DNA of 48,367 nucleotides from Neptuniibacter caesariensis (GTDB lineage Bacteria; Pseudomonadota; Gammaproteobacteria; Pseudomonadales; Balneatricaceae). Below, one piece after another: positions 5,009 to 25,854 of the stretch. Where the stretch lies: positions 1,747,941 to 1,796,307 of the forward strand of contig NZ_CH724125.1 of assembly GCF_000153345.1 (NCBI RefSeq), read 5' to 3'. The number at the start of each line of letters is the position of its first letter. Within the stretch, counting starts at the first letter, position 1. The notes beneath the pieces were generated by a model. The model searched no databases, was not told the DNA's origin, and worked only from the letters and a program-made list of their open reading frames with translations. A program made the translations under genes and the position numbers.

Positions 5009-5092
5009 AGAAAAAAATAGTCATGCCGTTAAAATAAGGAAATAATAACGATCCTCTAAATGATCCGCCGAGATCCAAACTCAGGTATAGAT

Positions 5093-6514: not shown

Positions 6515-6517
6515 CTA

Positions 6518-6537
6518 ATATCGGTTTTGGCCGATAT
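6518..6537. repeat. Inverted repeat between manC and the glycosyltransferase
   Basis: Perfect 7-bp inverted repeat ATATCGG-N6-CCGATAT just after the manC stop. It could form a small hairpin in the transcript or be a protein-binding site. No T run follows, so it is not a standard terminator. Confidence 0.4.
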
Positions 6538-6568
6538 ATCGAATAAACCTCACACAAGATTTAAACCG

Positions 6569-7432: not shown

Positions 7433-7435
7433 CCT

Positions 7436-8149: not shown

Positions 8150-9084
8150 CGACTAAGAACTTTATGGCGGTAGTGATGAATCATCGCTTTTATCCCGTCA
8201 TCAAGATCGATCCGCGGACGCCAATCAATATAACTTTTAAGCCTATCCACCGTCATATAGCGGACGGCCTGACCGTCTGGTTTATTGTGATCCCAGTTAA
8301 TACTGCCTCGGTAACCTGCTTGGTCCGCTATTTTGACAATCAACTTACGTAAACTGAGTGGATTTCCGGAACCTATATTGACAGGAGCGCTTGATTCTAT
8401 TGAGGAGGCGCTTTGTATTATTGCGGAGACAGCATCATCAACATGTAGAAAATCCCTTACAGGTTCCCCTGTCCCCCAACAAGTAACTTCTTCCACCCCT
8501 GAATGAGCTGCATCGACAAATCGCGCCACATTCGCAGGAAGAACTCTAGCAGTATCCAGGGAAAAACTCTCCCCCGGCCCATAGACGCTGTCGAGAATAA
8601 GATTAATGCTGTTGAAGCCAAACTGCTGCCGGGCTAATTCAGAATGGACAAGCATGGCTCGTTTAGCATAAGCATATCCCAGCACAGGAAGCGCCGGCTG
8701 GCCGTCAAACAGCGAAGACTCCAAATAAGGCGCTTCAGCTTCGGCTGGATAACAATTGATACTAGCAATATTAACAAGCTTGCCTACCCCATTACGTCGA
8801 GCCGCATGTAACAGTTGAGTATTCATCAATAGGTTATTTTCAAATACCTCGGCTCCATGAGCCTGCATATAACCTATCCCTCCCACATCTGCAGCCAGAT
8901 GGAAAATCAGGTCAAATGACTCGCTTTGCAAACTTACTTCAATTTGCTCATAACATAATAGATCACATTCACTCGAGCGCAGAGCTTTCACCTCTGCGCC
9001 TTCCTGCATCAGGGCTGCACAGAGATGCTTACCAATAAAGCCACCACCTCCTGTCACCAATACACGCTTACCCTGAAAACGCAT
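8146..9084 (-). CDS. SDR epimerase/reductase resembling GDP-L-fucose (or colitose) synthase
   Basis: 312 residues. The Rossmann motif TGGGGFIGKHL is at 11-21, and the catalytic pattern is S in NIASINCYP and Y137-xxx-K141 (GYAYAKR). The segments ESSLFDGQP, VYGPGESF and CWGTGEPVRDFLHVDDA match GDP-fucose synthase (Fcl/GMER) and ColC-type enzymes. These epimerise C3/C5 and/or C5 and reduce C4 of GDP-4-keto-6-deoxy sugars. It follows the His-type DegT dehydrase by 2 bp, so the pair could make a 3,6-dideoxyhexose such as a colitose-like sugar from a GDP-4-keto-6-deoxymannose precursor. The required 4,6-dehydratase (Gmd) is not in the window, so the sugar identity is inferred. It is the last gene of the minus-strand sugar run. 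Confidence 0.78.
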   Translation of the reverse strand: MRFQGKRVLVTGGGGFIGKHLCAALMQEGAEVKALRSSECDLLCYEQIEVSLQSESFDLIFHLAADVGGIGYMQAHGAEVFENNLLMNTQLLHAARRNGVGKLVNIASINCYPAEAEAPYLESSLFDGQPALPVLGYAYAKRAMLVHSELARQQFGFNSINLILDSVYGPGESFSLDTARVLPANVARFVDAAHSGVEEVTCWGTGEPVRDFLHVDDAVSAIIQSASSIESSAPVNIGSGNPLSLRKLIVKIADQAGYRGSINWDHNKPDGQAVRYMTVDRLKSYIDWRPRIDLDDGIKAMIHHYRHKVLSR

Positions 9085-9086
9085 TT

Positions 9087-10373
9087 TTACGCTACCGAGC
9101 TAACGAATGATCTGAAAGCATCGATTATGTAATCACGTTGCTCAGCCTTAATCATGCTATGACAACCGATAAAAAAGCCACTTCTTGTCATTAGCTCAGT
9201 ATGTTTCAGGTCTCCCGCTATTCTGATAGCTGGGTCATCACGATAGGCCGGCTGAAGCGCAAGGTTCCCTCCCATAAATGCCCTTGTTTCTATATTCCTG
9301 CTTTCCAGGAAACGTACTAACTCCTGACGCTTAAAAGGTGCATCGTCACGCACAATAATAGGATAACCATAAAACGAGTGCAGATAGCTCTCGGGCACGT
9401 AAGGCAGTTGTAAAAACGACGAAAACTCTTTCAATTGTTCGGTATAAAACTCGGCATTATTAATACGATCTTGTGTCAGTGCATCTAATTTCTTTAGCTG
9501 CTCAATTCCCAAAGCTGCGCATATGTCAGTCATTCGTACGTTATAGCCGACTTTCTCAAAGACATAGCGTTCGTCATATTCATTCAGAAAGCCATCACTG
9601 TAATAGAATCGGTCTTGAGATGAATCATATTCAGTCAAACGACCAAACTCTCGCGTAGAACGCAGAATCTTTTCTAATCGGCTATCCGACGTCATCACCA
9701 TTCCACCCTCACCCGTGGTCATGTTATGAGCCACGAAAAAACTATAAGTGGAGATAAGTCCGAAGGAGCCTACACGCTGACCTTCAATGGCCGCTGCATG
9801 AGCTTCACAACAGTCTTCCAAAATCGGGAGGCCATGCTTCTGAGCCAGTCTATTGATAGCAGGCATATCTGCTGCCAGACCCAGAGAATGAACCGGCATT
9901 ATTAGCCCTGTATTATCATTAATCGCTTCAGCGATCGCATCTACTGATATGTTGTGAGTATCACCGTCTATATCAACAAAAACGGGCTTAAGCCCATTTT
10001 GCAGAAGCGGTGAGATAACCGTAGTAAAAGTGGCTGCCGGGACGATAACTTCAGCTCCTGGCTTGACATAACCGGCCTGTAATAATGCATTGATCGCCAG
10101 CAAGTTGGCAGAGGAGCCAGAGTTAACTGCAATGCCATAATCGGTTCCAATATATTCAGCATAATCGGCTTCAAACTGACGAACCTTTGGTCCCATTGAG
10201 AGCCACACATCCAACAATGAACCAATCGCATTATTGATCTCTTTGTGGTCAAACACTGGGTAACCCACACCAATACGACTTTGACCCGGAATGAAGGTTT
10301 CTTGTTGCATATCGGCAGAGAAATACGCTTCGACAAGCGCAAATATCTGGTTTCGGATTTCAGATTTATTCAT
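9087..10373 (-). CDS. DegT-fold PLP/PMP sugar 3-dehydrase-like enzyme (Lys replaced by His216)
   Basis: 428 residues of the DegT/DnrJ/EryC1/StrS aspartate aminotransferase fold: NSGSSANLLAINALL (cofactor phosphate), EDCCEAHAA and GYNVRMTDICAALG. The internal-aldimine position reads TYSFFVAHNMTTGEGG, so the usual Lys is His216. In this fold that change marks dehydrases such as ColD and E1/RfbH, which remove the C3 hydroxyl of a 4-keto-6-deoxy sugar rather than simply transaminate. Length is near RfbH (about 437). No iron-sulfur Cys cluster like that of RfbH is evident (CC at 188-189 only), so a ColD-like mechanism is more likely. It sits between two SDR genes in one direction. Family is firm; 3-dehydrase activity is inferred from His216. 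Confidence 0.82.
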   Translation of the reverse strand: MNKSEIRNQIFALVEAYFSADMQQETFIPGQSRIGVGYPVFDHKEINNAIGSLLDVWLSMGPKVRQFEADYAEYIGTDYGIAVNSGSSANLLAINALLQAGYVKPGAEVIVPAATFTTVISPLLQNGLKPVFVDIDGDTHNISVDAIAEAINDNTGLIMPVHSLGLAADMPAINRLAQKHGLPILEDCCEAHAAAIEGQRVGSFGLISTYSFFVAHNMTTGEGGMVMTSDSRLEKILRSTREFGRLTEYDSSQDRFYYSDGFLNEYDERYVFEKVGYNVRMTDICAALGIEQLKKLDALTQDRINNAEFYTEQLKEFSSFLQLPYVPESYLHSFYGYPIIVRDDAPFKRQELVRFLESRNIETRAFMGGNLALQPAYRDDPAIRIAGDLKHTELMTRSGFFIGCHSMIKAEQRDYIIDAFRSFVSSVA

Positions 10374-10382
10374 CAGTACGCC

Positions 10383-11357
10383 TTAAAACTTATTTTTATA
10401 CCAGTCGTAACAGGCCCTCAGACCTTCGTCCAAGCTTACTGAGGCCTCATAACCAAGCTCCTCAAGCTTCGTTACATCAGGGCACCTTCGTTTAACACTG
10501 CCCTGGAAGGAAGCTTCAGCGAGGGTGTCAGTAGGAGAGCCGGTAATTAAAAGCAATTTTTTAGCTAATGCCTCTATGCTAATCTCTTCTTGTTTCCCTA
10601 TGTGATAAATTTCTCCACATGTTTTAGCGGACTCCATCACCAGCTGGGTTGCCTTGACAGCGTCATCAACATAACAAAAAGCTCTGGACTCATCCGCGCC
10701 AAAAACCTTAAAAGGAAACTCTTTTTTTACGATTCTTTCTATCATCTGGGGGACAACGTGTTTGAATCCCATTCTTGGACCATAAACATTGTGGTAACGG
10801 ATAATAGAAAAGTTTGTAAGCCCGTGAGCCTGTGCATAACAGTTAAGTGCGACCTCACTGACCATTTTGCCTGCGGCGTAACTCCAACGAGGGTTGGCTA
10901 CATCATCAATCACCAGCGGAACATTCTCAGGGGTCGGAACAGGAAAATCATTTCCGAGCAACGATAAAGTGCCCGCATAGGCTTCCGAACTCGAAGAGAA
11001 AACAATTTTTGCTTGTGGATTGGTTTTTAGCCATTCCAATAGGTTGAGTGTACCTAAAACGCCTACCCTTAGAACCTGATCAGGAATCTCGTAAAAATTA
11101 CCTGTGCCATTGATGGCGGCGAGGTGATACACCTGATCAAAATCATTATCAAGCTCCACAAACAACCCGGGGTCAGTGATATCCCCCCTGACTAAGGTAA
11201 CATTTTCTCTCTCGATAACTTCCTTCAGTTCAGCATCTCCTGAATACTCTCTGGCAAAATTATCGACAATATATAACTCATGCCCCTCTTCGGCGATCTT
11301 TCGCGATAGATGGAGGCCGATAAAACCTGTTCCACCGGTTATGAGTACTTTACTCAT
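10383..11357 (-). CDS. NAD-dependent epimerase/dehydratase (extended SDR)
   Basis: 324 residues. Rossmann motif TGGTGFIGLHL, substrate-loop Ser run FSSSSEAYAG, catalytic Y-xxx-K in WSYAAGKMVSE, and NVYGPRMGFKHVVPQM, all typical of UDP-sugar epimerases and UDP-glucuronate decarboxylases. Its ATG overlaps the stop of the upstream nucleotide-sugar dehydrogenase by 4 bp (ATGA). It therefore probably acts on the UDP-uronate that enzyme makes, as a 4-epimerase or a decarboxylase. It is not Gmd-like: the opening and loop motifs differ. The exact reaction cannot be assigned by eye. Confidence 0.8.
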   Translation of the reverse strand: MSKVLITGGTGFIGLHLSRKIAEEGHELYIVDNFAREYSGDAELKEVIERENVTLVRGDITDPGLFVELDNDFDQVYHLAAINGTGNFYEIPDQVLRVGVLGTLNLLEWLKTNPQAKIVFSSSSEAYAGTLSLLGNDFPVPTPENVPLVIDDVANPRWSYAAGKMVSEVALNCYAQAHGLTNFSIIRYHNVYGPRMGFKHVVPQMIERIVKKEFPFKVFGADESRAFCYVDDAVKATQLVMESAKTCGEIYHIGKQEEISIEALAKKLLLITGSPTDTLAEASFQGSVKRRCPDVTKLEELGYEASVSLDEGLRACYDWYKNKF

Positions 11358-12679
11358 ACACCCACCCCCAAGTATTCCACATTATCTAACTCATCAAACA
11401 TGTTCTTCTCAAGCATTCGCCACGCGTCATAAAACAGGCAGGGTTGGCGCATTTTCGAAGTAATCATATAAGGATCGATCTCAGTGTATGATGCATGATT
11501 GTTCATCAACATTAATACATCAGCGCCAGACGCTAACTGCTCAAGTGAGGAAGAGACCTCAAAACCCAGAGTTTCCAGTTCAGTATCCGAAATAACCGGG
11601 TCATAGACCTTGATAAGCGCCTCTGGATAATTGGCAGAAAACTGCTCCAGTAACCATATAGAAGTTGATTCTCGAAGATCCGATGTCTCAGGCTGGCCTT
11701 TGAATGCCAAACCGGCTATGCCTATGGTCACCTGATCCATTGGCTTTTTAATCACATCAAGTCGCGCGGCTACCCGATTAACAATATCCGCAACAATCTC
11801 TTCATTGATACGTCGGCCCTCCAGTAACAGACTTGCATCTGCTCCTGCCTTCTTTGCCGCATCCGCAAGTATATATGGATCCTTCGAGAGACAAGCACCG
11901 CCGACACCTGGGCTGGGAACCGGAATAGAGTTTCTAGGATAATGAGTATTGGCACAATCAATTAATTCATTAGCGTCCAACCCCATAGACTCACAAATTT
12001 GCGCTACTTGGTTCGCATATGAGAAGCGTAAATCACGATAGGAATTATCCATCAATTTAACCATCTCAGCAGCTTCAAGACTGGAAACAGAAAGAATCGT
12101 AGGCGTGAGTTTTGCAAACATCTGAGAAGCTTTCTGAATCGAAGCCTCATCAAAGCCACCAATTACCTGTGGATTCTTTTCCAATTCCTGTATCGCATTC
12201 CCCTCGATAGTGCGCTCTGGCACAAAAGCAAAAGAAAAACCGTCTCCCACTTGCAAACCAGAGCTCTTCTCAATTTCTGGAATGGCGATCTTGCGACTGG
12301 TGCCTACAGCAACTGTTGACCTGAGGGCAATTAAGGCACCTTGCTGAACATGCCCGCCCACTTCTTCCAAAACTTGACCGATATAGTCCGTATTAGGCCT
12401 TTTACTACTCTTATGTAATGGTGTACCGACCGAGATAATATATGTATCGACCTTACCAACACCCACCAGATTCTGACTTAATCGAATCTTACCAGCTTTG
12501 ACATAATGCCTGAGAAGAGGTGCTAAACCTTTCTCGGTAAAGTGCGGAATTCCCTCTTTTAACTGTGTCAACACATCAAGGTTTTTTTCGACTCCAATAA
12601 CATTAAAGCCTTTCTTCGCAAGGGCAACACTTAACGTTAATCCAACATAACCCATTCCCATGACCGCAACGCTTGTCAT
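11354..12679 (-). CDS. UDP-glucose/UDP-N-acetylhexosamine 6-dehydrogenase family
   Basis: 441 residues of the UDP-sugar 6-dehydrogenase family. N-terminal NAD-binding VAVMGMGYVGLTLSVALAKKG, the PERTIEGNAIQEL motif, the central-domain Lys in MVKLMDNSYRD, the catalytic Cys in GVGGACLSKDPY, and a C-terminal domain with GLAFKGQPETSDLRES. It oxidises C6 of a UDP-hexose twice to give a UDP-uronate. The PERTIEG form is closer to UDP-GlcNAc/ManNAc dehydrogenases than to classical Ugd, so the substrate is uncertain. Upstream is a 109-bp gap holding a small GGCCTAAAGGCC inverted repeat, which may separate it from the GT2-neuB unit. The downstream SDR is translationally coupled. Confidence 0.85.
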   Translation of the reverse strand: MTSVAVMGMGYVGLTLSVALAKKGFNVIGVEKNLDVLTQLKEGIPHFTEKGLAPLLRHYVKAGKIRLSQNLVGVGKVDTYIISVGTPLHKSSKRPNTDYIGQVLEEVGGHVQQGALIALRSTVAVGTSRKIAIPEIEKSSGLQVGDGFSFAFVPERTIEGNAIQELEKNPQVIGGFDEASIQKASQMFAKLTPTILSVSSLEAAEMVKLMDNSYRDLRFSYANQVAQICESMGLDANELIDCANTHYPRNSIPVPSPGVGGACLSKDPYILADAAKKAGADASLLLEGRRINEEIVADIVNRVAARLDVIKKPMDQVTIGIAGLAFKGQPETSDLRESTSIWLLEQFSANYPEALIKVYDPVISDTELETLGFEVSSSLEQLASGADVLMLMNNHASYTEIDPYMITSKMRQPCLFYDAWRMLEKNMFDELDNVEYLGVGV

Positions 12680-12788: not shown

Positions 12789-13427
12789 TCAAAATCGTTT
12801 AAAAAGCCCTTTGAGCATGGCTTTCAGGATATAAACATCTGCTTTCAGACTACCGCCAAATCGTGATTCGTCTTCACGCGGCACTATGGGGACAGGGTAT
12901 TGCTTAACGGTACGTTTTGTACGAATAGCCCTGATCAACAACTCAGTACCACAAGATTTATAGGTATCAAAAGCACCATTTTCGCGCCAGATATCGATAT
13001 TATAAGCCTTCATTCCGCACAAAGGATCTCTAATACCCCACAACGTACTCGTGACTGAGGCAAAAAACCTTTCTGACCAGCGCTGTGTTTCCGAACGAAA
13101 CCCAACCACACAATCTGCCACCTGCATTTGCTTTAAAAATTCTGGCAATACATCCCCAGGGTGCTGACCATCACCATCCATAGTTATAACACAATCGAAT
13201 CCCATCTCAGCTGCGTACTCAAATCCCCGATTAATTGCCCCATCGTAGCCGAGATTATGCTGAGCAGAAAGCACTGTAGCACCTGCCTGCTCTGCCTTTT
13301 CTGCTGTTTTATCACTGGAACCGTCATCCACAACAATAGCCAACAAAGCAAAAGCTAACACCTCTGATACAACGGAGGAAATGGTCTGTTCTTCGTTGAA
13401 CGCGGGAATCACAACAGCCGTTTTCAT
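12789..13427 (-). CDS. Family 2 glycosyltransferase (DPM1-like)
   Basis: 212 residues with GT2 opening VVIPAFNEEQTISSVV, VDDGSSDKTAEKA, LGYDGAINRGFEYA and the metal-binding MDGDGQHP, close to the dolichyl-phosphate-mannose synthase/WcaA group. There are no C-terminal membrane helices, so it is a soluble catalytic domain only. Its ATG directly abuts the neuB stop (TAA-ATG), showing operon membership with the nonulosonate-type set. It may extend or decorate the flagellin glycan, or make a lipid-linked sugar. The donor is unknown. Confidence 0.85.
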   Translation of the reverse strand: MKTAVVIPAFNEEQTISSVVSEVLAFALLAIVVDDGSSDKTAEKAEQAGATVLSAQHNLGYDGAINRGFEYAAEMGFDCVITMDGDGQHPGDVLPEFLKQMQVADCVVGFRSETQRWSERFFASVTSTLWGIRDPLCGMKAYNIDIWRENGAFDTYKSCGTELLIRAIRTKRTVKQYPVPIVPREDESRFGGSLKADVYILKAMLKGLFKRF

Positions 13428-14519
13428 TTATAGCTTACCAACAAGATCTGGCCTCAGGTGCTCACCTTTAACCATATCCTGCTTTAACGATAACCCAATA
13501 ACATCCTGCAACTGATAGGGCAAGAAAGCGTCTACTGGCGCGGGCCGTAGACATTCTAAATCGGCTTCGACTAATACTTCACCTGCTTTCATGTCTCTGG
13601 TTAAACGAACAGACCTTCGCTGTAAAACAACTGTCTCAGCTTCATTAGCTTCCACTTTTTTTATGGGGGAGCCTAACGCCGCTTCCAACTCCCTTGTGCG
13701 ATCAACCATCTCTTTCCAGGTAACCGGATTCATTGAAAATTTGTGATCAGGTCCATTTCTCTGATTGTCATCTGTAAAATGTTTCTCTATAACTCGAGCA
13801 CCTAAAGCAACCGCCCCCAAAACAGTGGAATGACCGGGAGTATGATCACTTAACCCTAATACTAACTCTGGAAACAGAGTCCGGTAGGTTTTTAAGACAT
13901 TCAGATTAATGTAAGCAAAGTTTTCCAAACTAGCCGTGTAGTTGGTATTACACTGCATCAAAACTAGCTTTGGATTAATCTTAAGACAAGCCTCCACAGC
14001 GGCAACAACATCTGCCAGTTCAGACGCGCCCGTGGCAAGAAAGTAAGGTTTATTTTTCTTAGCAATATGCTCAAGCATCGCATGCCAGGTAATATCACCC
14101 GAACCTATCTTATGTGCGGGAACAAATTGATCAATATAATCAGCTAAGTCGAAATCATAAGGGCTGGTAAAGAAATCAATCTCAGCTTGCTTACAGGTAT
14201 TAACCAGTTCTTCAGTCCAGTTTAAATCGACTTCAGCATCAGCATAAACCTCATAAACAGATTTCTCCCAGGTGGACTGGTGCGATTGCTGCCCTCCCAA
14301 TGACTTAAAACCAAAGTCGCTGACGATGGTATCGGCTTTAAAATGCTGAAACTTAGCTGCATCGGCTCCCGCTTCTGCTGAAAGCCATATCAATTCTTTA
14401 GCCTTTTCAAGATCACCATCATGATTTGCGGCAATATCGGCAATAAAATAGGTAGGGTCTGACTCTGAAATAGAATGTGAATTAACGATCAAAGGTGAGT
14501 GTGTATTACTGATATTCAT
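13428..14519 (-). CDS. neuB: NeuB-family sialic/nonulosonic acid synthase with SAF domain
   Basis: 363 residues. The N-terminal TIM-barrel has FIADIAANHDGDLEKA, AGADAAKFQHFKA, KIGSGDITW, GLSDHTPGHSTVLGA and ARVIEKHFTDD; the two His in SDHTPGH and EKHFT match metal ligands known in NeuB. A C-terminal SAF/antifreeze-like domain starts at about residue 295 (RRSVRLTRDMKAGEVL). The family condenses phosphoenolpyruvate with a 6-carbon N-acyl amino sugar to make a nonulosonic acid. Sequence by eye cannot decide between NeuB, LegI and PseI. It overlaps the upstream RmlD-like gene by 14 bp. The usual partners PseG, PseH and PseC are missing nearby, so its substrate is uncertain. Confidence 0.88.
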   Translation of the reverse strand: MNISNTHSPLIVNSHSISESDPTYFIADIAANHDGDLEKAKELIWLSAEAGADAAKFQHFKADTIVSDFGFKSLGGQQSHQSTWEKSVYEVYADAEVDLNWTEELVNTCKQAEIDFFTSPYDFDLADYIDQFVPAHKIGSGDITWHAMLEHIAKKNKPYFLATGASELADVVAAVEACLKINPKLVLMQCNTNYTASLENFAYINLNVLKTYRTLFPELVLGLSDHTPGHSTVLGAVALGARVIEKHFTDDNQRNGPDHKFSMNPVTWKEMVDRTRELEAALGSPIKKVEANEAETVVLQRRSVRLTRDMKAGEVLVEADLECLRPAPVDAFLPYQLQDVIGLSLKQDMVKGEHLRPDLVGKL

Positions 14520-15369
14520 CTATAATCCTGTCCAATTCTTGCTCCAGCGAAGGCAGATTGGTATTAAAACTATTTTGGTAGTGGCTAACATCCATTCGCA
14601 TGTCATTTGGGCGCCTTGCTTTCAAGGCAACCGACTCCACTGTTACTTCGCTAAGATACCCTTCATCAAAACCAAATTTTCGCGCTATTGCAAACGCCAA
14701 TTCGGCTTTAGAAAAACCATCTGACGTACCCAAGTTATATATACCCGGCTTAAAATCCACCAACCTGCATTGAATTTCTTCACATAAACTAGCTATGGAT
14801 AACGCATTGATATAAACATCTTCAAAGACCGGGATCTGTTTCTTTTCCCGTAGAGCCTGTATCACCCAATCAGAAAAACTAGACCTTCCATCTATCAAAC
14901 TTTTACCAAAAAAGTTAACCCTTAATACCAACCCTTCAGCGCGCAGAACCGACTTGTCAGCCAGTAATTTTGTCAGGCCATAAACATTGATCGGGTAAGC
15001 ATTCCCTTCTAGGTGAGGTCCGATTCCTGAATACACTTGATCCGTTGATATGTGAATAAACTTTATTGTCTTAGGTAGAATGCCCTGGACAGCAGAAATA
15101 CATTGATCGACAAACTCTGTATTTATCTGGTAGGCCTTATATGGATCTTCTTCACAGGCATCTACATTGGTCAGCGCTACTAAATTAACAACATGAGAAA
15201 TCTGTTTTTTACTAAGAAACTCAGTCAGCTCTTGGACAAACACCCCCTTCAACTGAAGATCATGCGTTTCGGATCTGCCTGCCGTATAACAGTTCCATTT
15301 CAATTTTTTGAAGCTCTGCATTAATGCACTACCCAGTAGCCCACTCCCGCCCAATACAAGAACATTCAT
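14506..15369 (-). CDS. RmlD-like sugar-nucleotide reductase (SDR)
   Basis: 287 residues of the dTDP-4-dehydrorhamnose reductase type. NAD(P)-binding VLGGSGLLGSALMQSF, VVNLVALTNVDACEEDP, the catalytic STDQVYSG and Y-xxx-K in YGLTKLLADKSVL, and a late RPNDMRMD segment typical of RmlD. These enzymes reduce a 4-keto sugar nucleotide at C4. It lies between the cytidylyltransferase-aminotransferase fusion and neuB. It might therefore reduce the 4-keto product of PseB, giving a 6-deoxy-N-acetylhexosamine instead of the 4-amino sugar made by PseC. That role is inference. AGGAC about 6 bases before the ATG supports the start. Confidence 0.82.
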   Translation of the reverse strand: MNVLVLGGSGLLGSALMQSFKKLKWNCYTAGRSETHDLQLKGVFVQELTEFLSKKQISHVVNLVALTNVDACEEDPYKAYQINTEFVDQCISAVQGILPKTIKFIHISTDQVYSGIGPHLEGNAYPINVYGLTKLLADKSVLRAEGLVLRVNFFGKSLIDGRSSFSDWVIQALREKKQIPVFEDVYINALSIASLCEEIQCRLVDFKPGIYNLGTSDGFSKAELAFAIARKFGFDEGYLSEVTVESVALKARRPNDMRMDVSHYQNSFNTNLPSLEQELDRIIDEYQ

Positions 15370-15380
15370 AATGGTCGTCC

Positions 15381-17411
15381 TTAATTAAGACGCTTGAAAG
15401 TACTATGACATAAAGCCCCATCCAGAAGACCCATAGGATCATCCCCTTGCTTGATACATGATGAGAATGTCGAAAAAACAGCTTCCAGATGTTTTAAGTA
15501 GCTGAGAAGATGATCCTCAGTGTGCGCTATCGAGGGATAAAGTGCATTTGATGCCAGAATTCCCTGCTTTAATAACTCTTGGGATATCAGGGTTTTTAAT
15601 ACGACTGCCTGCTCACCTTTCAATGAAAAACCGCCTAATGCAGGTAGACCGAAGCACTCTATATCCAGTTTATAACGCTCAGCCAAATGCTTCCAAGCAT
15701 CACGAACCTTACAACCATAATCGGTGATCTGAAGCCAAGATTGCTCCTGTTCCATCACCTCCAAGGTTGCTAAAGCAGCACTAGGGCCAATTCGCTCAGT
15801 CCAAAAGGTGCTGCTGATAAAGGTACTTTGAGCAGCATCCATAACATCACGGGTACCAATCACTGCGGTAATTGGATATCCATTGCCCAGCGCTTTACCA
15901 AACACAGCCATATCCGGGTTGACCCCATACTTCAAATGCAAACCACCAAAGGTTTCTCTGAAGCCCGATGTGCACTCATCAAAAATAAGCACGACCCCAT
16001 GCTTATCGCACAATTCCCTAACAGCCTGAAGGTAACCATCCTCAGGCTCAATATTTCTTTTTACTTCCATTTTTACGACTGCGATTTCATCACCTTCGAT
16101 AATGCCACGCAAACGTTCAATATCATTGGGCATAAAGGTAATAACGGAGCCCTCCAGATCTTTAGGAACCCCTTTCGGGTCCAATCCAGGGAGTAGATGC
16201 TGATCCAGGGAATCATCGGAGCTTAAGTTAACTGACAGGTACCAGTCATGCCAGCCATGATAACCACAAACAGCGATCTTATCCCGGCCTGTAGCAGCCC
16301 GCGCAATGCGAATCGCAATCGAGTTAGCTTCTCCACCAGCTCTTGAGAATCGCACCATATCAGCCCAAGGATGTAGAGCAACCATTCTTTCCGCCAGCAT
16401 GACCTCTTCTGGACAATTCAAGCTGGACATATTTCCTTGTCTTACGGTTCTCTGCACAGCCTCATCTACTTTTGGATGGCCGTAACCAAGCGTATTGGTT
16501 CCAACCCCCATAAGCGCCATATCGGTAAAACTATTCCCATCCAGATCTTTAACAACGATACCCGAGGCTTCTGAAAAATAAGTTGGCCATCCATCAGGCA
16601 AAAACATCTCGGGGCGCTTTGAAAGCAACATGTTGCCACCTGGAATAAGCTGCTTAGCTCTGCGCCATAATTTTGTACCAGAACTCATTGTAGACCCTTC
16701 ATTTCTCTGAATTTCACAATTAGCTTCAAATTTAGCTGGCTGTTCGCACTGTAATTCAAGCACCTCTTTCCAACCAAAATGCACGTCAGGTGCCAAAGCC
16801 TCAAAAACAAACTTTATCACCTCTAGGTCTTCTATTTGGTCAAGAGTCCAACGTTTATCTGAGTGATTTTTATCTGCACTTAAAGTATGAGTTTTAAAAA
16901 AGCCCGGTTTACGCAGGTAAGGTGTCACATGCTCTCGATCATAGGAATCAACCGCATTTAGATAGGCATTTTTCAGCGCGTCAAAAGTAAAAACCTCTGC
17001 GTCAAGACCATCCGGATATGTGGCGGGATAGTTGTTACAAACATATTCAAAATCACTGTTCAGAATAGACTCAATAACCTCATCCACCAAAGTGACATCA
17101 ATCAGAGGGCAATCACCCGTTAAGCGCACAACATATTCAGGATTATATTGCTCGGCGCAATCATAAAAGCGCTTTAGCACATCATGTTGGCTACCCGCGT
17201 AAATTGAGTACCCCCAACTTTTAACGGCCTCAATAAGGGAGGCATTTTCATGCTCCTCCCCAGTAGCCACTACAATCTGATCCGCACATTTACTCTTGCT
17301 CAAGCGCGATAGCATAATTTTAAGTAAAGGCTGGCCAACAACCTCTTTAAGGACCTTTCCAGCTAATCGCGATGATCCAAGGCGAGCCTGTACAATCATC
17401 AGCACTTTCAT
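15381..17411 (-). CDS. Fusion: SpsF/CMP-sugar cytidylyltransferase domain plus class III (GSA-type) aminotransferase
   Basis: About 676 residues in two clear parts, numbered from the upstream ATG at 17423. Residues 6-235 are an SpsF/CMP-KDO-synthetase-like nucleotidyltransferase (IVQARLGSSRLAGKVL, RLTGDCPLIDV, NYPATYPDGLDAEVF). Residues 245-670 are a class III PLP aminotransferase close to glutamate-1-semialdehyde aminomutase (RAGGEANSIAIRIARA, GYHGWHDWY, FDECTSGF), with PLP-binding Asp482 and Lys510 (FGKALGNGYP). Both parts look catalytically intact. The first would activate an acid sugar as a CMP derivative; the second would transaminate a carbonyl of unknown substrate. The ATG at 17411 is preferred because it overlaps the aldo/keto reductase stop as ATGA. 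The fusion may channel two steps of an atypical nonulosonate pathway. Confidence 0.87.
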   Translation of the reverse strand: MKVLMIVQARLGSSRLAGKVLKEVVGQPLLKIMLSRLSKSKCADQIVVATGEEHENASLIEAVKSWGYSIYAGSQHDVLKRFYDCAEQYNPEYVVRLTGDCPLIDVTLVDEVIESILNSDFEYVCNNYPATYPDGLDAEVFTFDALKNAYLNAVDSYDREHVTPYLRKPGFFKTHTLSADKNHSDKRWTLDQIEDLEVIKFVFEALAPDVHFGWKEVLELQCEQPAKFEANCEIQRNEGSTMSSGTKLWRRAKQLIPGGNMLLSKRPEMFLPDGWPTYFSEASGIVVKDLDGNSFTDMALMGVGTNTLGYGHPKVDEAVQRTVRQGNMSSLNCPEEVMLAERMVALHPWADMVRFSRAGGEANSIAIRIARAATGRDKIAVCGYHGWHDWYLSVNLSSDDSLDQHLLPGLDPKGVPKDLEGSVITFMPNDIERLRGIIEGDEIAVVKMEVKRNIEPEDGYLQAVRELCDKHGVVLIFDECTSGFRETFGGLHLKYGVNPDMAVFGKALGNGYPITAVIGTRDVMDAAQSTFISSTFWTERIGPSAALATLEVMEQEQSWLQITDYGCKVRDAWKHLAERYKLDIECFGLPALGGFSLKGEQAVVLKTLISQELLKQGILASNALYPSIAHTEDHLLSYLKHLEAVFSTFSSCIKQGDDPMGLLDGALCHSTFKRLN

Positions 17412-18289
17412 TTTTTTGTCCATGTTCGAGGGTCAAATAAGTTTCTGGGGGCGTTAAAGTCTGGGAAATCTAGCTCTATAGATGAGACCGTTTCAATAGC
17501 ACCCGCTATTTGCTGCAAATGATCTAATGAATGCACACCTATTATTACTTTAGATAGATAGGGGCATGAAAAAAAATAGCCTAAAGCAATCTGTAATTTT
17601 GACAGATCCAGCTCAGCACACCAATCATGATATAACTTCAGATAGGGTTGCCAGGATGGGGCGTACCGATGATATTGCTCTTCATTGTCTAGCAAAACGC
17701 CTTGTAAGAAAGCGGACCGAGCATTAATGTCGATCCCTAAAACACTCAATTGCTTTGCCCATCCGCTGCTGACTATCCTGTTGTCGAAAAGATTATAAGG
17801 AACTTGAATAACATCGGGCTTAATGACATCCAGAATGGGGCCAAGCTCCTCGGGGTCATAAATTGAAACCCCGAACCTACGAATAATGCCCTCAGACTTA
17901 AGCCCTTCCAGGTCATCTTCAAGGACGGACACATCACTCGCTAAGAGGTCAGAAGAAGAATGGAAATAAAGCGTATTTAACGAGCAGAGGTTAAGCCTTT
18001 CCAAGGAAGCATTTACAGCATCGCGAAGAGAGCAGCAGCGAGTAAATTGATTGTTAGGGGGTAGTTTGGTATCAACCAGCATCTCACTCAACTGGAGTTT
18101 ACCTAGAACCGTTTCACTGTCTCCATAGACAGCTGCTGTATCCAGTTGGACAATATCATTCGCTTTGCAAAAACGGATGATATTTTCAGTTTCTTCGAAA
18201 GGAACCTGATCAGAACTTGGGTTTGTGATACCGTAACTGAGCCCAAACTGAGCTGCCCCCAATATTAGTCGGTCAACAGCCCTACCCAT
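17408..18289 (-). CDS. Aldo/keto reductase family protein
   Basis: About 293 residues of the AKR TIM-barrel type, opening LILGAAQFGLSYGITN. The catalytic tetrad is recognisable: Asp and Tyr in LDTAAVYGDSE, Lys in LVDTKLPPN and His in LYFHSSSD. A late SKVIIGVHSLDHLQQI segment binds NADP phosphate. It would reduce a carbonyl with NADPH. The gene lies 20 bp after pseB and is translationally coupled to the fusion gene, so its substrate is probably an intermediate of the flagellar sugar. The frame is open up to 18361, overlapping pseB; the ATG at 18289 is chosen because it starts just before the conserved domain and right after the pseB stop. Confidence 0.83.
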   Translation of the reverse strand: MGRAVDRLILGAAQFGLSYGITNPSSDQVPFEETENIIRFCKANDIVQLDTAAVYGDSETVLGKLQLSEMLVDTKLPPNNQFTRCCSLRDAVNASLERLNLCSLNTLYFHSSSDLLASDVSVLEDDLEGLKSEGIIRRFGVSIYDPEELGPILDVIKPDVIQVPYNLFDNRIVSSGWAKQLSVLGIDINARSAFLQGVLLDNEEQYHRYAPSWQPYLKLYHDWCAELDLSKLQIALGYFFSCPYLSKVIIGVHSLDHLQQIAGAIETVSSIELDFPDFNAPRNLFDPRTWTKK

Positions 18290-18309
18290 CTTATAGCAAT
18301 AGCTCAAGT

Positions 18310-19293
18310 TCAATAGCCATTCTCTGACAGCCATTTTTTCAATTGATCTTGACTCATCCAAACATCATTATTGTCAGACGAGTATGTGAAATTTTCAGCA
18401 ACTTTCACGCCGTCTTTAATTCGCTTAGGATCATCACACCAACCATAAATCGCTGGAAGTATTTTGAAATAATCCTGATACTCAAAAGTATGCAAAGCGT
18501 CTTCAGAGCCTATCATCTGCTCATGCAACTTTTCCCCGGGGCGTATACCAATTGTATAATGCTCAGCATTAGGGCAAACCGCCTGCGCAATATCCGTGAT
18601 TGTCATTGAGGGGCACTTTCGAACGTATATTTCACCACCGACCATATCTTCAAAAGCTTGCCATACGAGCCCCACCCCCTGTTCAAGAGAGATCATAAAA
18701 CGAGTCATACGGTCATCAGTAATTGGCAATCGCCCTTCAGCTTTCAAGCTATGGAAAAAGGGTATGACCGAACCACGAGAACACATGACATTGCCGTAAC
18801 GAACAACGGAAAACTTAGTTTCGCTTTTACCCGCATATGAATTGCCAGCAATAAAAAGCTTGTCAGAAGTAAGTTTGGTTGCACCGTAGAGGTTAGCCGG
18901 GCTGCTGGCCTTATCGGTCGATAACGCGACAACAGATTTAATCCCCTTGTCCAAACAAGCATCAATGACGTTCATCGCGCCATTGATATTTGTTTTAACA
19001 CATTCAAAGGGGTTGTACTCAGCCGTAGGAACAATCTTAGTCGCCGCTGCATGAACGACATAATCTATTCCAGAAAGCGCCCTGACCAAACGGGATTTAT
19101 CTCGAACATCACCAATGAAAAAGCGAACTCTTTCATCGCCCTCATACAGCTTTGCCATCTCCCATTGCTTCATCTCATCTCGGGAATAGATAACTAGCCT
19201 TTCGGGATCGTATTTTTCAAGCGTCATTTGTACAAATTTATGTCCAAACGAACCTGTTCCACCGGTTATCAATATACTTGAATTTTTTAGCAT
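18310..19293 (-). CDS. pseB: PseB, UDP-GlcNAc 4,6-dehydratase (inverting)
   Basis: About 327 residues. ILITGGTGSFGHKFVQ begins the NADP-binding domain, followed by IYSRDEMKQWEM and the catalytic ALSTDKASSPANLYGATK (Asp-Lys pair and Tyr-xxx-Lys), diagnostic of PseB/FlaA1. It converts UDP-GlcNAc to the 4-keto-6-deoxy-L-arabino sugar, the first step to pseudaminic acid. The ATG at 19293 is chosen because GGGTGA precedes it at suitable spacing, unlike the upstream ATG at 19329. An extended -10 promoter lies about 60 bp upstream. It heads the unit pseB-AKR-fusion-RmlD-neuB-GT2. The next canonical enzyme, PseC, is not beside it. Confidence 0.92.
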   Translation of the reverse strand: MLKNSSILITGGTGSFGHKFVQMTLEKYDPERLVIYSRDEMKQWEMAKLYEGDERVRFFIGDVRDKSRLVRALSGIDYVVHAAATKIVPTAEYNPFECVKTNINGAMNVIDACLDKGIKSVVALSTDKASSPANLYGATKLTSDKLFIAGNSYAGKSETKFSVVRYGNVMCSRGSVIPFFHSLKAEGRLPITDDRMTRFMISLEQGVGLVWQAFEDMVGGEIYVRKCPSMTITDIAQAVCPNAEHYTIGIRPGEKLHEQMIGSEDALHTFEYQDYFKILPAIYGWCDDPKRIKDGVKVAENFTYSSDNNDVWMSQDQLKKWLSENGY

Positions 19294-19355
19294 AGTGGAT
19301 TTCACCCGATTCTTTCCAGCCGTTAACATAGCGCAATAGTACGTATACTAAGGTA

Positions 19356-19364
19356 ATTATAACA
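19356..19364 (-). promoter_or_regulatory. Extended -10 promoter ahead of pseB
   Basis: On the minus strand TGTTATAAT combines a perfect TATAAT with the TGn extension, 60-70 bp upstream of the pseB ATG. No good -35 is seen, as is usual for extended -10 promoters. It suggests the sugar operon is not wholly dependent on flagellar sigma factors. Confidence 0.5.
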
Positions 19365-19430
19365 GCTAGAAATAGTTTTTTATTTTCAGCGAGTTATATA
19401 ACTATTTAACGTGCGACAATTCGGAAAATT

Positions 19431-21434
19431 CTACAAATTGCAATATGTATCAAGGTTGTAGAGGTTATGCTTCATATCTTCCTCTACCTGATCAAGGAAA
19501 CGATTTACAATTTGACAGCTTTTAGCAAAATTCTCAGAATAATTTTCTACTCCACCGTAAAGCACAACCGAGTAAACAGCTGACAACATTGTTTCAATAG
19601 AGCCTTTAAACAACATCGCGGTATAACCATCTAGCTTTGTTTGCCAGAATGAATTTCTTATCTCGGATAACCTGTTAACCAGCTGCTCTTCATTTTCCAC
19701 AGTCAATTTCAGGATTTCCCTCAACTGAGAAAATAGTCCCTCTGCTTCTATAATAACCTTGCTTTTAACCTTGTCCTTGCTTTCAGGTAGGACTCCCTCA
19801 GAACTAAACACCATTTCATGCAGTGCCTGCAGAGTTTTAATCTTGTCCTTGCCAGCAACTTCCTTAACTATATAGTCATTACTTTCAAAGGCTGCACCAC
19901 GAATTTCGGCACCATCACTAAGGTTTTTAACATTAAGACCATACTTATCAATAAGCCTTTCAATGTTTAGTTTAGAACTGTTAAAGGCAGCATTTGTATA
20001 AAGTTCCTTACCATCCCGACCTTTAATCTTAAACTTATCATCGGTCGCCTCAATGAATTTAAAGATGTTTGGTGACTCATCCTTCGCTTTGGCATAGTAA
20101 CTCTTCTCAGAATGGTGTTTATCGATCTCTTTCATACCAAGATCAACACCAGCAAGGAAGACATTCTTCATCCCCAGAAGCACACATAGGGAAAGGCCGA
20201 AATTAGTTACGGTTGGGTTAGACCCGTCAGCGAAAGACAGTGTGTGGCCCTTCTTAATGGACCTTGAAAGATAAATAGAACCTAAATCATTTGGCTTGAG
20301 ACACTGACCGGTTTTATCCGCATCAAATAAACTGAAACAATCCGGATGTACCGTATTTAAACCGTAGAAATAGATCCCTTGACGGAAGCTTTCTGTGGTC
20401 GATTTAATCAACCAGCGGTAAGTATCATATGGGCGCTCCTGCTCAACATGAATGTCAGGCTTAATTCCCATTCCCTCGAGAGCACTTAAGCTTGAACCAC
20501 AAGAAATAAGAATCATCTTATCCTTGTTAGCCCTTAAAAAGTGTTCGCTCCCGTCCAAAGAGGGGCCATTACCAATGACGACTGCTGGTAACTGACAATG
20601 AATTTTACGTTGTAACAATCCAACAGTTGAGGGCGGTATATTTCTCTGACAGTTCTCTACGGTATGTGCCAAACCTACTTTTTCATCATCATAAAACCCC
20701 GCGGCAGCACTCGGAGCCAGCAGTTTTTTGAAAAAGTTTTCGAGAAGTGTATCTAGTGTACTGTTTACGTAATGTCGGTAAACAAACATTTTAGTAAATA
20801 CATAGTTACCTACCTCGTAGGTATACTGATGTAGGTTGTCGAGTATCTCTTTCTCTGTATCCCCAATAATGATCTTTAACTGACCCTTTACCGCTCTGAA
20901 AATACTTTCCCAATCCACGAAATACATAGATAGGTAGAATGAGTCTTTATTGTTTTCAATGATGACGACATTGTTGAGGGCTTTCTGTTCAAGTAGTGCT
21001 TTTATATGCAGCCCTGAACCAATTCCCACAATGAAAAGCTGCTGGATCAGCTGTTCATCCTGCGCAAAAAATTCTGGCATTGACGCATCACCGCGGAGCT
21101 CAACCAGGCTATCCATCATTTCATGATGTAAATATTGGGTATCAACTACATGCGGGTTGTAAAACCGAATCACACTGGCTTTAGTATCACGTAGAAACTT
21201 ATCTACTTGCTTATCCGCGTATTGTTCAGGGCGTTCCGGATAAACAAAACGGCCTGTCTTACGGTTGATGATGTTTATATGCTCACTTTCATCAAACGCA
21301 AGAGTTAAATTCTGAGGTTCATAACTCTTGAACTCAGCATAGACATCTGGTGACAGAAGTTCGAAGAACTGCATATTCTTCGTGAAGATGGCGTCAACTA
21401 CTTTATTTTGCTCAAACTTTTCCTGAAAACCCAT
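19431..21434 (-). CDS. maf: Maf-type motility accessory factor (DUF115), flagellin glycosyltransferase
   Basis: 667 residues. The central DUF115/MAF_flag10 domain has VVIGNGPSLDGSEHFL and ILISCGSSLSALEGMGIKPD, followed by LCVLLGMKNVFLAGVDLGM. The N-terminal part has a second Rossmann-like block (FIVGIGSGLHIKALLE), and the C-terminal third is helical. Maf proteins transfer nonulosonic acids (pseudaminic or legionaminic type) from CMP donors onto Ser/Thr of flagellin in the cytoplasm before export. It begins 9 bp after the fliD stop, so it is expressed with fliD, right beside the sugar genes. This is the strongest contextual evidence that the island serves flagellin glycosylation. No other recognisable flagellin glycan transferase is present. 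Confidence 0.9.
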   Translation of the reverse strand: MGFQEKFEQNKVVDAIFTKNMQFFELLSPDVYAEFKSYEPQNLTLAFDESEHINIINRKTGRFVYPERPEQYADKQVDKFLRDTKASVIRFYNPHVVDTQYLHHEMMDSLVELRGDASMPEFFAQDEQLIQQLFIVGIGSGLHIKALLEQKALNNVVIIENNKDSFYLSMYFVDWESIFRAVKGQLKIIIGDTEKEILDNLHQYTYEVGNYVFTKMFVYRHYVNSTLDTLLENFFKKLLAPSAAAGFYDDEKVGLAHTVENCQRNIPPSTVGLLQRKIHCQLPAVVIGNGPSLDGSEHFLRANKDKMILISCGSSLSALEGMGIKPDIHVEQERPYDTYRWLIKSTTESFRQGIYFYGLNTVHPDCFSLFDADKTGQCLKPNDLGSIYLSRSIKKGHTLSFADGSNPTVTNFGLSLCVLLGMKNVFLAGVDLGMKEIDKHHSEKSYYAKAKDESPNIFKFIEATDDKFKIKGRDGKELYTNAAFNSSKLNIERLIDKYGLNVKNLSDGAEIRGAAFESNDYIVKEVAGKDKIKTLQALHEMVFSSEGVLPESKDKVKSKVIIEAEGLFSQLREILKLTVENEEQLVNRLSEIRNSFWQTKLDGYTAMLFKGSIETMLSAVYSVVLYGGVENYSENFAKSCQIVNRFLDQVEEDMKHNLYNLDTYCNL

Positions 21435-24028: not shown

Positions 24029-24054
24029 CAGTAAGTATAGTCGCTATCTTACTG
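24029..24054 (-). other. Hairpin overlapping the fliC stop codon
   Basis: Inverted repeat CAGTAAG(t)ATAG - TCG - CTAT-CTTACTG with one bulged base spans the TAA of fliC. It probably folds in the mRNA 3' end and may stabilise the flagellin transcript against exonucleases. Confidence 0.45.
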
Positions 24055-25854
24055 AAGCAGTGACAGTACCTGCTGTGGCGCAGCGTTAGCCTGTGCCAGC
24101 ATTGCAGTACCCGCCTGCTGGAGTACCTGTGCTCGTGACAGTGCAGCAGATTCAGCAGCAAAGTCAGCATCTTCGATTCGTGAACGGGCAGCCGCTACGT
24201 TCTCAGATACGTTTGACAGGTTATTGATTGTGAAGTCCAGACGGTTATTGATCGCACCCAGATCACCTCGAGTAGCGTTGATTTCTTCCAGAGCGGAGTC
24301 AATGATACCGATAGCTTTCTGCGCACCCGCAGCAGTAGAGATGTCGATTGACGCGACACTACCCGCACCTTCAGAAGCATTTCTCTCCTGAAGACCTGTC
24401 AGGTTAAGAATTGCAGTTTCCTGAGTAGAGTTCAGATCACTTGCATACTCGATGGCAATTTCGTCACCACTTGCGGAACGAAGACCGATACCGCTTACAC
24501 CACCGGCACCAGAAGTATCACTTTCGAATGCAACAACACCAGTCTGATCAGACATTTTATTGATCGCTTCAACAGCAGCGTCAACAGTCAGCGCTTCAGT
24601 TGTACCACCAGTAATTTCACCGATTTCAACACCGTTGATGATCAAGTCACCAGCCTGAACAGTAGTACCACTCAGGTCTGCTGTGCCAGAAAGAGATTGA
24701 GATAATAAGTTACCGTTATCATCGCTCAGATCAATACCGATGTTGTCAGCAATATCATATGCAGCTGATGCGCCTGTACCTGCCTGCTCAATTTTAACAC
24801 CAGACTGATCAGCACTTGTGTCATTAACTACCAAAGAGAAGAACTGAGTATCTGTAGTAGTACCTGCAGACAGACCAAACGCTTCGTCTACACGACCCGC
24901 TGTATCTGCTACAGCGATAGAACCTGCGTTTTCAGCACGCAGAATCAGTTTTCCATCCTGGTTAACAGAAGCTTGTACTGTACCGCCTGCAACATCATTG
25001 ATCTTACTAACAAGATCATCCATGTTCTGAGTATCAGTGATAACGAAAGATGTAGCATCTTCAAAGTTGTTAGTAACAGTAATAGTTACTTCATCAGTAC
25101 CCGCAACCAGAACACCATCACCAACACCTGCTGATTCCCACTCAACCAATGTAGATACTTCAGCACCGTAGTCATTAATGTCTGCATTGATGCTGTCTAG
25201 CTGATCTTGAAGAATCGCTTCACCAGTCAGCGAGCTGATTGCCTGATCGTTAATAGTTAGCGCACCTGTACCAGTTGCACCAGTGATTGTTTCCAACACA
25301 CCAATAGCAGTAACAGCTTCACCGATGATAGTACCGCCAGAACCACCGATAGAACGTGAGTCCAGTGCACCAATCTCAAGGGCAATAGTTTCGTTCGCGT
25401 CAGCACCCGCCTGAAGATCAACGTTACCCAGCGTACCGTCCAGAATATTCAGGCCGTTGAATTTAGTTGTCTCAGAGATACGGTCGATCTCAGCAACCAA
25501 CTGTTGAACCTCAGCGTTCAGAGTGCCACGGTTACCTTCATCGTAAGTACCGTTGGCAGACTGAATAGACAGCTCACGCATACGCTGCAGGATGTTAGTT
25601 GTTTCATCCAATGCACCTTCAGCCGTCTGAATCAGAGAGATACCATCGTTTGCATTTCGGATCGCCTGGTCAAGACCACGAACCTGAGAAGTCATACGGT
25701 TAGAGATCGCAAGACCCGCCGCATCGTCTGCTGCAGAGTTGATACGCTTACCGCTGGTCAGACGCTCCATAGCCTGGTTTTGATCGCCCTGAGAGATCAT
25801 CAGGTTACGCTGAGCGTTCAGCGACATAATGTTTGAGTTAATTACCATTGCCAT
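24049..25854 (-). CDS. fliC: Flagellin FliC
   Basis: 601 residues. The N-terminal D0/D1 is classic (VINSNIMSLNAQRNLMISQG, LTSGKRINSAADDAAGLAIS), and the C-terminal D1/D0 ends with RSRIEDADFAAESAALSRAQ and VLSLLQ. The central region (about 180-500) is a long variable Thr/Ser/Ala-rich D2/D3 block, offering many sites for O-glycosylation by Maf. It is larger than typical Pseudomonas b-type flagellin (about 490). Ribosome site GAGGAG lies 8 bases before the ATG at 25854. Transcription comes from the sigma-28 promoter at 25959-25985 with a leader of about 100 bases. Only one flagellin gene is seen in the window. Confidence 0.96.
   Translation of the reverse strand: MAMVINSNIMSLNAQRNLMISQGDQNQAMERLTSGKRINSAADDAAGLAISNRMTSQVRGLDQAIRNANDGISLIQTAEGALDETTNILQRMRELSIQSANGTYDEGNRGTLNAEVQQLVAEIDRISETTKFNGLNILDGTLGNVDLQAGADANETIALEIGALDSRSIGGSGGTIIGEAVTAIGVLETITGATGTGALTINDQAISSLTGEAILQDQLDSINADINDYGAEVSTLVEWESAGVGDGVLVAGTDEVTITVTNNFEDATSFVITDTQNMDDLVSKINDVAGGTVQASVNQDGKLILRAENAGSIAVADTAGRVDEAFGLSAGTTTDTQFFSLVVNDTSADQSGVKIEQAGTGASAAYDIADNIGIDLSDDNGNLLSQSLSGTADLSGTTVQAGDLIINGVEIGEITGGTTEALTVDAAVEAINKMSDQTGVVAFESDTSGAGGVSGIGLRSASGDEIAIEYASDLNSTQETAILNLTGLQERNASEGAGSVASIDISTAAGAQKAIGIIDSALEEINATRGDLGAINNRLDFTINNLSNVSENVAAARSRIEDADFAAESAALSRAQVLQQAGTAMLAQANAAPQQVLSLLQ

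Follow-up and report, generated by a model that had tools for sequence, protein, structure and literature searches.

Which acidic sugar is made by a gene set that opens with a pseudaminic acid enzyme and continues with others? The question is raised by a gene run at positions 12789 to 21434 of a 48,367-nucleotide stretch of Neptuniibacter caesariensis DNA (the window, below). The window is part of a 2.09-Mb contig, and the genome, 98.14% complete, measures 3.92 Mb. On the minus strand, genes for the dehydratase PseB, an aldo/keto reductase (AKR), a fusion of an SpsF-like CMP-transferase with a class III aminotransferase, an RmlD-like reductase, a NeuB-family synthase and a family 2 glycosyltransferase (GT2) follow one another beside a Maf flagellin glycosyltransferase. 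Nonulosonic acids are found on flagella and surfaces, and gene content is the usual basis for dividing them into neuraminic (Neu), legionaminic (Leg) and pseudaminic (Pse) acids. We propose, with a probability of roughly 0.5, that this run encodes a two-module pathway to a flagellar nonulosonic acid, in which the RmlD-like enzyme of a core would leave a 7-hydroxyl and an add-on would make an 8-amino group. The variant appears to be widespread but little described.

Results

Gene content of the run

The cluster proteins were named by Pfam and NCBIfam models; the labels FliD and FlaG were assigned by eye. The genes are as follows.

12789..13427, minus strand: short GT2 (PF00535, Glycos_transf_2)
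13428..14519, minus strand: NeuB-family nonulosonate synthase of the RmlD-linked clade (PF03102 + SAF)
14506..15369, minus strand: RmlD-like short-chain dehydrogenase/reductase (SDR), proposed C4-ketone reductase (PF04321, RmlD_sub_bind, 1.5e-35)
15381..17423, minus strand: fusion of an SpsF-like CMP-transferase (residues ~1–240; PF02348, CTP_transf_3) with a class III (GSA-type) aminotransferase (~246–680; PF00202, Aminotran_3)
17408..18289, minus strand: AKR (PF00248, Aldo_ket_red, 4.5e-29)
18310..19293, minus strand: PseB, UDP-GlcNAc 5-inverting 4,6-dehydratase (TIGR03589, 518 bits, above the cut-off of 407.75)
19431..21434, minus strand: Maf flagellin glycosyltransferase, proposed transferase of the sugar (PF20157 + PF01973)
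24049..25854, minus strand: flagellin, proposed acceptor (Flagellin_N + Flagellin_C)

From PseB to GT2 the genes overlap or are separated by at most 20 bases, and Maf and one flagellin sit upstream. The run and its Maf neighbour are as given in the preliminary description, with which the Pfam and NCBIfam names agree; the observation is confirmed. The PseB frame is open up to 19329, with 19293 as the preferred start. The AKR frame is open to 18361 and most likely starts with the ATG at 18289, giving a protein of 293 amino acids that matches its relatives in length; we take residues D50, Y55, K75 and H110 to be the AKR tetrad. The fusion is a single open frame of 680 amino acids without an internal stop and with family motifs in both halves. 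Residues K510, D482 and Q12 A13 R14 S17 R19 L20 K23 V24 are the same in all 11 fusions aligned; the predicted structure is a weak model (mean predicted local distance difference test score, pLDDT, 66.6). The RmlD-like protein scores 106 bits, under the rmlD equivalog cut-off of 224. The order PseB-AKR-fusion-RmlD-NeuB-GT2 recurs in genome G127, an uncultured Marinobacterium (L050), a betaproteobacterial metagenome-assembled genome (L066) and Propionivibrio (L103), which argues that the set is not assembled by chance. G127 is very probably the Dasania locus L125, since their proteins are identical.

A conserved core around NeuB and RmlD

Scanning 84,980 species genomes with the NeuB proteins of the window and G127 gave at least 566 confirmed relatives. 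The best 80 (59–75% identical) span at least ten phyla, as judged by record title, and their loci were used for counting. Because longest-frame gene calling hid some genes, the counts come from six-frame searches with our own hidden Markov models (HMMs; thresholds >40 bits for RmlD and >250 bits for PseB). PseC, PseG and PseH were labelled with small HMMs of our own, and by database annotation for one record; on leave-one-out, scores fell to 38–39 for a single training sequence each of PseG and PseH.

RmlD was found in 77 of the 80 loci. In two of the others (L061, L072) the sequence breaks off right upstream of NeuB; the third (L091) has PseB and one more gene before NeuB in a sequence that ends ~1.4 kb past it. 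PseB was present in 64 loci, 63 of them with RmlD. Full-length PseC occurred in none of the 80, the top score being 210 bits (a 126-residue remnant in L089) versus 429–686 for training members, and PseG occurred in one (L083, which carries a second NeuB). Weaker DegT relatives (58–210 bits) and weaker PseH-like GNATs were detected in 29 and 28 loci; many belong to a second recurring gene set. An SpsF-type match was found in 65 loci, in some cases from other gene sets, and a NeuA-like family in 26. Over whole genomes with this NeuB, PseG exceeded its curated cut-off in 0 of 5 and 3 of 48, that is, in 3 of 52 distinct genomes (completeness not stated). The high-scoring NeuBs formed one clade (support 100/100) apart from 11 others, in a tree of 19 of the 82 rows above 450 bits and all 11 lower rows, the group being picked by score.

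With RmlD in 77 of 80 loci, PseC in none, PseG rare and NeuB in a clade of its own, these sequences point to PseB, a CMP-transferase, RmlD and NeuB as a conserved core that usually lacks PseC and PseG. RmlD accompanies this NeuB clade almost constantly, also in loci that have no class III aminotransferase, and no other core enzyme remains to act on the C4 ketone that PseB makes. This fits the earlier suggestion that the ketone is reduced, which would yield a 7-hydroxyl in the product.

Other observations were made around the core. The L089 remnant (6731–7111) is 68% identical to a full PseC and immediately precedes RmlD-NeuB; it looks like the trace of a pse cluster displaced by the RmlD set. 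The second recurring set (L051, L066, L078 and others) comprises CTP_transf_3, a Gfo/Idh-like protein (16 of 80 loci), DegT, a GNAT (14 of 80) and an uncharacterized 300-residue protein (17 of 80). In L055, L058 and L106 the core is followed by genes that are, by eye, deacetylase- and formyltransferase-like, which suggests exchange of N-acetyl for N-formyl.

Search for the canonical pathways

The PseG model found zero matches in the whole genome of N. caesariensis; the same model matched in 5 of 14 control genomes, in 2 of them above cut-off. No PseC above the cut-off of 423.5 was found in the genome (three matches, the best 236 and 223 bits) and no PseH above 93.1 (a single match of 21.4 bits). 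The earlier report that PseC, PseH and PseG are not recognisable thus holds genome-wide at the curated cut-offs. The window NeuB lies under the PseI cut-off (239.7 versus 340.25 bits), in a separate clade of the tree, and under the NeuB_NnaB equivalog cut-off (268.7 versus 399.65 bits). In a scan limited to ten cluster proteins, the LegB model reached at most 126 bits (cut-off 475) and the LegC model 169.5 (cut-off 420). On the model scores of cluster and genome, we rejected the canonical Pse, Neu and Leg pathways.

The preliminary description had also seen no DegT aminotransferase step. No PseC passed the cut-off, but a DegT homologue does occur ~3 kb downstream of the run.

9087..10373, minus strand: DegT homologue of the RfbH/ColD 3-dehydrase kind (best match 3bcx; PseC model 222.8 bits, cut-off 423.5)

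Because it resembles RfbH/ColD 3-dehydrases and carries His in place of the pyridoxal phosphate (PLP) lysine, as does dehydrase 3bcx, we rejected it as PseC; it probably serves another sugar. It is one of the two stronger PseC relatives of the genome. The other stands ~70–80 kb away at an O-antigen-like locus, which also holds a second, different NeuB with a NeuA-like gene. By eye, this locus (L002, L003, L004; contig C5, ~1.67–1.69 Mb) has NeuA-like, hydroxyacid dehydrogenase-like and WbpB/D/E-like genes.

A separable add-on

We searched 293 genomes of the order and inspected the neighbourhoods in the ten best-scoring ones. Full-length fusions were present in 6 of the 293, in four cases beside PseC and PseG. 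All ten inspected clusters contain the AKR. Eight have a PseC homologue, a PseG-like gene and a different NeuB (the DegT gene of L048 is cut at the stretch end, and the PseG-like gene of L046 is divergent), and in the other two clusters, those of the window and G127, there is RmlD and neither PseC nor PseG. The fusion is not peculiar to clusters devoid of PseC and PseG. An annotated plasmid of Pseudosulfitobacter pseudonitzschiae, pSMR1-1, has the order pseB-pseC-AKR-GNAT-hypothetical-fusion-pseG-pseI.

Among the 80 NeuB loci, the AKR occurred in 12, the class III aminotransferase in 10 and both in 7 (hypergeometric probability 2.5e-5, loci taken as independent). In L051 and L074, which have the aminotransferase without AKR, it lies at the stretch edge. 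Five AKR loci lack the class III enzyme; three of them (L057, L083, L105) carry in that slot a DegT aminotransferase with the catalytic Lys; in L105 and L057 its best solved relatives are perosamine synthetases, not PseC.

Trees were made for both enzymes. Aminotransferases of the two settings mix: one 11-row clade (100/100) unites seven RmlD-type and four Pse-type proteins, and 232 and 247 of 500 label shuffles were as low. This tree has 23 rows outside both labelled groups, some duplicating grouped rows, and its L045 and L125 are identical. The AKRs mix as well, with at least three label changes forced (duplicate loci L018 and L020 omitted).

The cluster thus consists of two modules, core and add-on, that occur apart. 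An add-on that serves both 7-amino and proposed 7-hydroxy cores most likely targets a position that the two share. Its occurrence with PseB/C/G/I clusters, together with the mixing in both trees, makes C7 an unlikely target. The earlier proposal that the aminotransferase acts elsewhere on the molecule is therefore probably right, as its relatives are found in clusters where PseC is present as well.

A search of phage records with the fusion gave 52 matches, none across more than 80% of it. On an archaeal plasmid (Halorussus aquaticus, L136, 5889–9139), an SpsF-like gene and a class III aminotransferase gene are adjacent, after a Gfo/Idh oxidoreductase; no NeuB is annotated within the 16 kb shown.

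Proposed position of the amino group

Solved relatives of the aminotransferase in the PDB include C-6' aminotransferases (7lld). These class III enzymes place an amino group on an exocyclic carbon of the sugar. The C8 of a NeuB product comes from ring C5 of the hexose, and a free CH(OH)-CH3 arises only after condensation. That C8 is freed at this stage fits oxidation and transamination just before CMP transfer, and with it the fusion of aminotransferase and CMP-transferase.

A further clue comes from Acinetobacter prophages. There, according to the accessible text, EpaA (CTP_transf_3::Aldo_ket_red) and EpaB turn Pse5Ac7Ac into its 8-epimer, as seen by nuclear magnetic resonance after gene addition (PMC12053666). 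The same two domains thus act on C8 of a nonulosonate in that system. In the window they lie on separate genes, SpsF is fused to the aminotransferase rather than to the AKR, and an aminotransferase takes the place of the SDR EpaB; EpaA was compared by domain architecture. No EpaB-like SDR lies between PseB and GT2, the RmlD-like SDR being counted to the core and the rest of the genome not searched. One RmlD cluster (L057) does encode a 548-residue SpsF::AKR protein, and an SpsF-like::AKR protein is also on record from a pse cluster of Vibrio (PMC7371886, accessible text). The L057 protein as query gave one weak partial phage match, four plasmid records with at least 80% coverage at 26–28% identity, and no match among viral contigs.

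Proposed pathway and product mass

From these data we infer the catalytic steps below, along with the C8 position and the stereochemistry. PseB would form UDP-2-acetamido-2,6-dideoxy-L-arabino-hexos-4-ulose, the C4 ketone of which the RmlD-like enzyme would reduce to a hydroxyl, likely giving UDP-6-deoxy-L-AltNAc or its C4 epimer. After removal of UDP by an activity other than PseG, the distinct NeuB would condense the sugar with phosphoenolpyruvate to a 5-acetamido-3,5,9-trideoxynonulosonate with a 7-hydroxyl. The AKR may then oxidize the C8 hydroxyl to a ketone and the class III aminotransferase convert it to an 8-amino group; the SpsF domain of the fusion would activate the product with CMP, and Maf would transfer the sugar to flagellin.

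For a 5-acetamido-8-amino-3,5,8,9-tetradeoxynonulosonic acid residue with a free amine we computed 274.117 Da (C11H18N2O6), and for its N-acetylated form 316.127 Da (C13H20N2O7), which is the formula of Pse5Ac7Ac. Mass alone cannot decide, since a 274-Da sugar of Shewanella oneidensis shares the formula C11H18N2O6 though the strain has PseB and PseC (PMC3765264, accessible text).

Candidates for UDP release were also considered. GT2 was rejected as the absent hydrolase, as a relative is present in only 41 of the 80 loci by our HMM (33 by clustering) and elsewhere genes that are, by eye, GNAT- or GT4-like follow NeuB. We also rejected the fusion of a hydrolase domain to NeuB, RmlD or PseB; long members show terminal extensions, likely start-site artefacts, or are an unrelated paralogue (L052_9).

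Other genes of the window

A second sugar module lies at 5060–12679, with ManC/PMI-like, GT2 and methyltransferase genes on the plus strand and, on the minus strand, genes for an Fcl-like SDR, the RfbH/ColD-like 3-dehydrase, a 4,6-dehydratase-like SDR and a UDP-sugar dehydrogenase; it may provide a 3,6-dideoxy sugar for the flagellar glycan. At 26454–29905, a YCF48/BNR-repeat protein is encoded immediately upstream of an MMPL-family transporter.

Discussion

Several results weigh against the two-module pathway. In L085 the order is fusion-RmlD-NeuB-GT2, with neither AKR nor PseB within 14,960 bases, and in L081, a 7.5-kb contig, the AKR stands without any aminotransferase or SDR. Three unfused Pse-type aminotransferases (L047–L049) form a clade of their own (99/96), AKR labels partly group with their setting (as low in 6 and 9 of 500 shuffles), and long branches occur in both trees. 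The EpaA/EpaB reaction is an epimerisation, not an amination. The literature searched (mostly without subscription papers) yielded no 8-amino nonulosonate. Clustering of the 80 loci gave no candidate family for UDP release that recurs in all of them, and weaker PseG-model matches (E up to 0.001) were seen in 19 of 48 genomes, including the three over cut-off, and in 2 of 5. Finally, the high-scoring NeuB was found in 1 of 41 genomes of the Fusobacteriaceae, the family of a fusaminic acid producer, and that genome had seeded the search.

The C8 assignment in particular invites another explanation, namely that the add-on works on the nonulosonate at C4 or C9, or merely epimerises C8 as EpaA/EpaB does (PMC12053666), with the aminotransferase acting on a second substrate. 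C8 was deduced indirectly, and L073 combines the AKR with an SDR (by eye) and no aminotransferase. Yet 10 of the 12 AKR loci contain an aminotransferase (class III or DegT) as well, and in 6 of 10 class III loci it is fused to the CMP-transferase, two others being cut, which points to one line of substrates. We consider this explanation unlikely.

A cluster that lacks PseC and contains one aminotransferase with a complete PLP site could also mean that the class III enzyme replaces PseC at C4 of the UDP-hexose. The product would then be an ordinary 5,7-diamino acid of the pseudaminic type, and RmlD and the AKR would do other work. However, relatives of this aminotransferase stand beside a PseC homologue in eight of the ten order-level clusters and on the Pseudosulfitobacter plasmid, and the fused enzymes of both settings mix in the tree. 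The class III enzyme is present in 10 core loci against 77 for RmlD, so that RmlD alone should handle the C4 ketone in most of them. Replacement of PseC therefore seems improbable to us.

That the run is a degraded or transplanted pseudaminic cluster, with unlinked non-homologous enzymes filling the gaps and normal Pse on the filament, is very improbable. In its favour, S. oneidensis MR-1 is reported to carry its 274-Da nonulosonate without clear PseH/G/I/F orthologues (PMC3765264, accessible text), but the core is conserved across many phyla with its own NeuB clade, and no PseC over cut-off is encoded in the N. caesariensis genome.

The two-module pathway may have a wider meaning. We tentatively suggest, at somewhat less than even odds, that PseB, an RmlD-type C4 reductase and the distinct NeuB clade form a fourth nonulosonate route, independent of PseG and represented in at least ten phyla, that gives 7-hydroxy-9-deoxy acids and can be joined by an exchangeable C8 module (AKR with a class III or DegT aminotransferase, or with an SDR) that gives 8-amino or 8-epi acids. 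If such a route exists, UDP would have to be released by an unknown hydrolase, unless its NeuB can dispense with such an enzyme. With a common route outside Neu, Leg and Pse, some of the pseudaminic acids that were predicted or assigned by mass would be other compounds: an N-acetylated 8-amino product, isobaric with Pse5Ac7Ac, would pass as pseudaminic acid by mass alone. The pathway offers a missing UDP-release enzyme and a sugar-amination module, both open to direct testing. Taken as a whole, the earlier interpretation is partly supported. The RmlD core was indeed without description in the literature searched, but the set is less isolated than was thought, given its many NeuB relatives and a related Aeromonas gene pair already in print.

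Comparison with known systems

The published pair is a reductase and a class III aminotransferase, listed without assigned function among pse genes of Aeromonas. Flagellin glycosylation island group I differs from the window in having pseC, and pseG in some subgroups; no RmlD is named in the accessible text (PMC7874193). The flagellin sugar of A. hydrophila AH-1 has a mass of 403 Da (oxonium m/z 404), and some fragments are one unit off a Pse derivative (PMC4691044, accessible text). Its odd nominal mass suggests an odd number of nitrogens by the nitrogen rule; the authors' top formula is nitrogen-free and the island subgroup of AH-1 is not stated there, so that we take it only as a hint. The 274-Da sugar of S. 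oneidensis MR-1, a mono-N-acetyl nonulosonate, was rejected as proof, as the strain has PseB and PseC and the shared formula is that of an isomer.

Fusaminic acid, a 7-hydroxy 3,5,9-trideoxynonulosonate found with 6-deoxy-L-AltNAc in one O-chain of Fusobacterium nucleatum 25586, shows the chemistry expected from PseB followed by C4 reduction, in an O-antigen and not on a flagellum (PMC13014188, accessible text). As of 2020, the gene cluster behind it was described as not investigated (PMC7371886, accessible text). With the NeuB at high score in just one of the 41 Fusobacteriaceae genomes, a link by orthology is not supported, and we treat it as a chemical analogy.

The CMP-pseudaminic acid pathway (PseB, C, H, G, I, F) shares with the window a PseB over cut-off, a NeuB-family synthase, a CMP-transferase and the linkage to Maf and flagellin. 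It differs in PseC and PseH, not found over cut-off in this genome, in PseG, which had no match, in the RmlD-like reductase and in the separate NeuB clade. The synthesis of 8-amino-Kdo, which runs through KdnB and KdnA and then CMP transfer, concerns an eight-carbon sugar and its terminal carbon, and uses an unrelated dehydrogenase and a DegT aminotransferase (PDB 5k8b, which appears among the DegT structure matches). In the order of its steps it is like the add-on proposed here: oxidation of an ulosonic acid, transamination, then activation with CMP.

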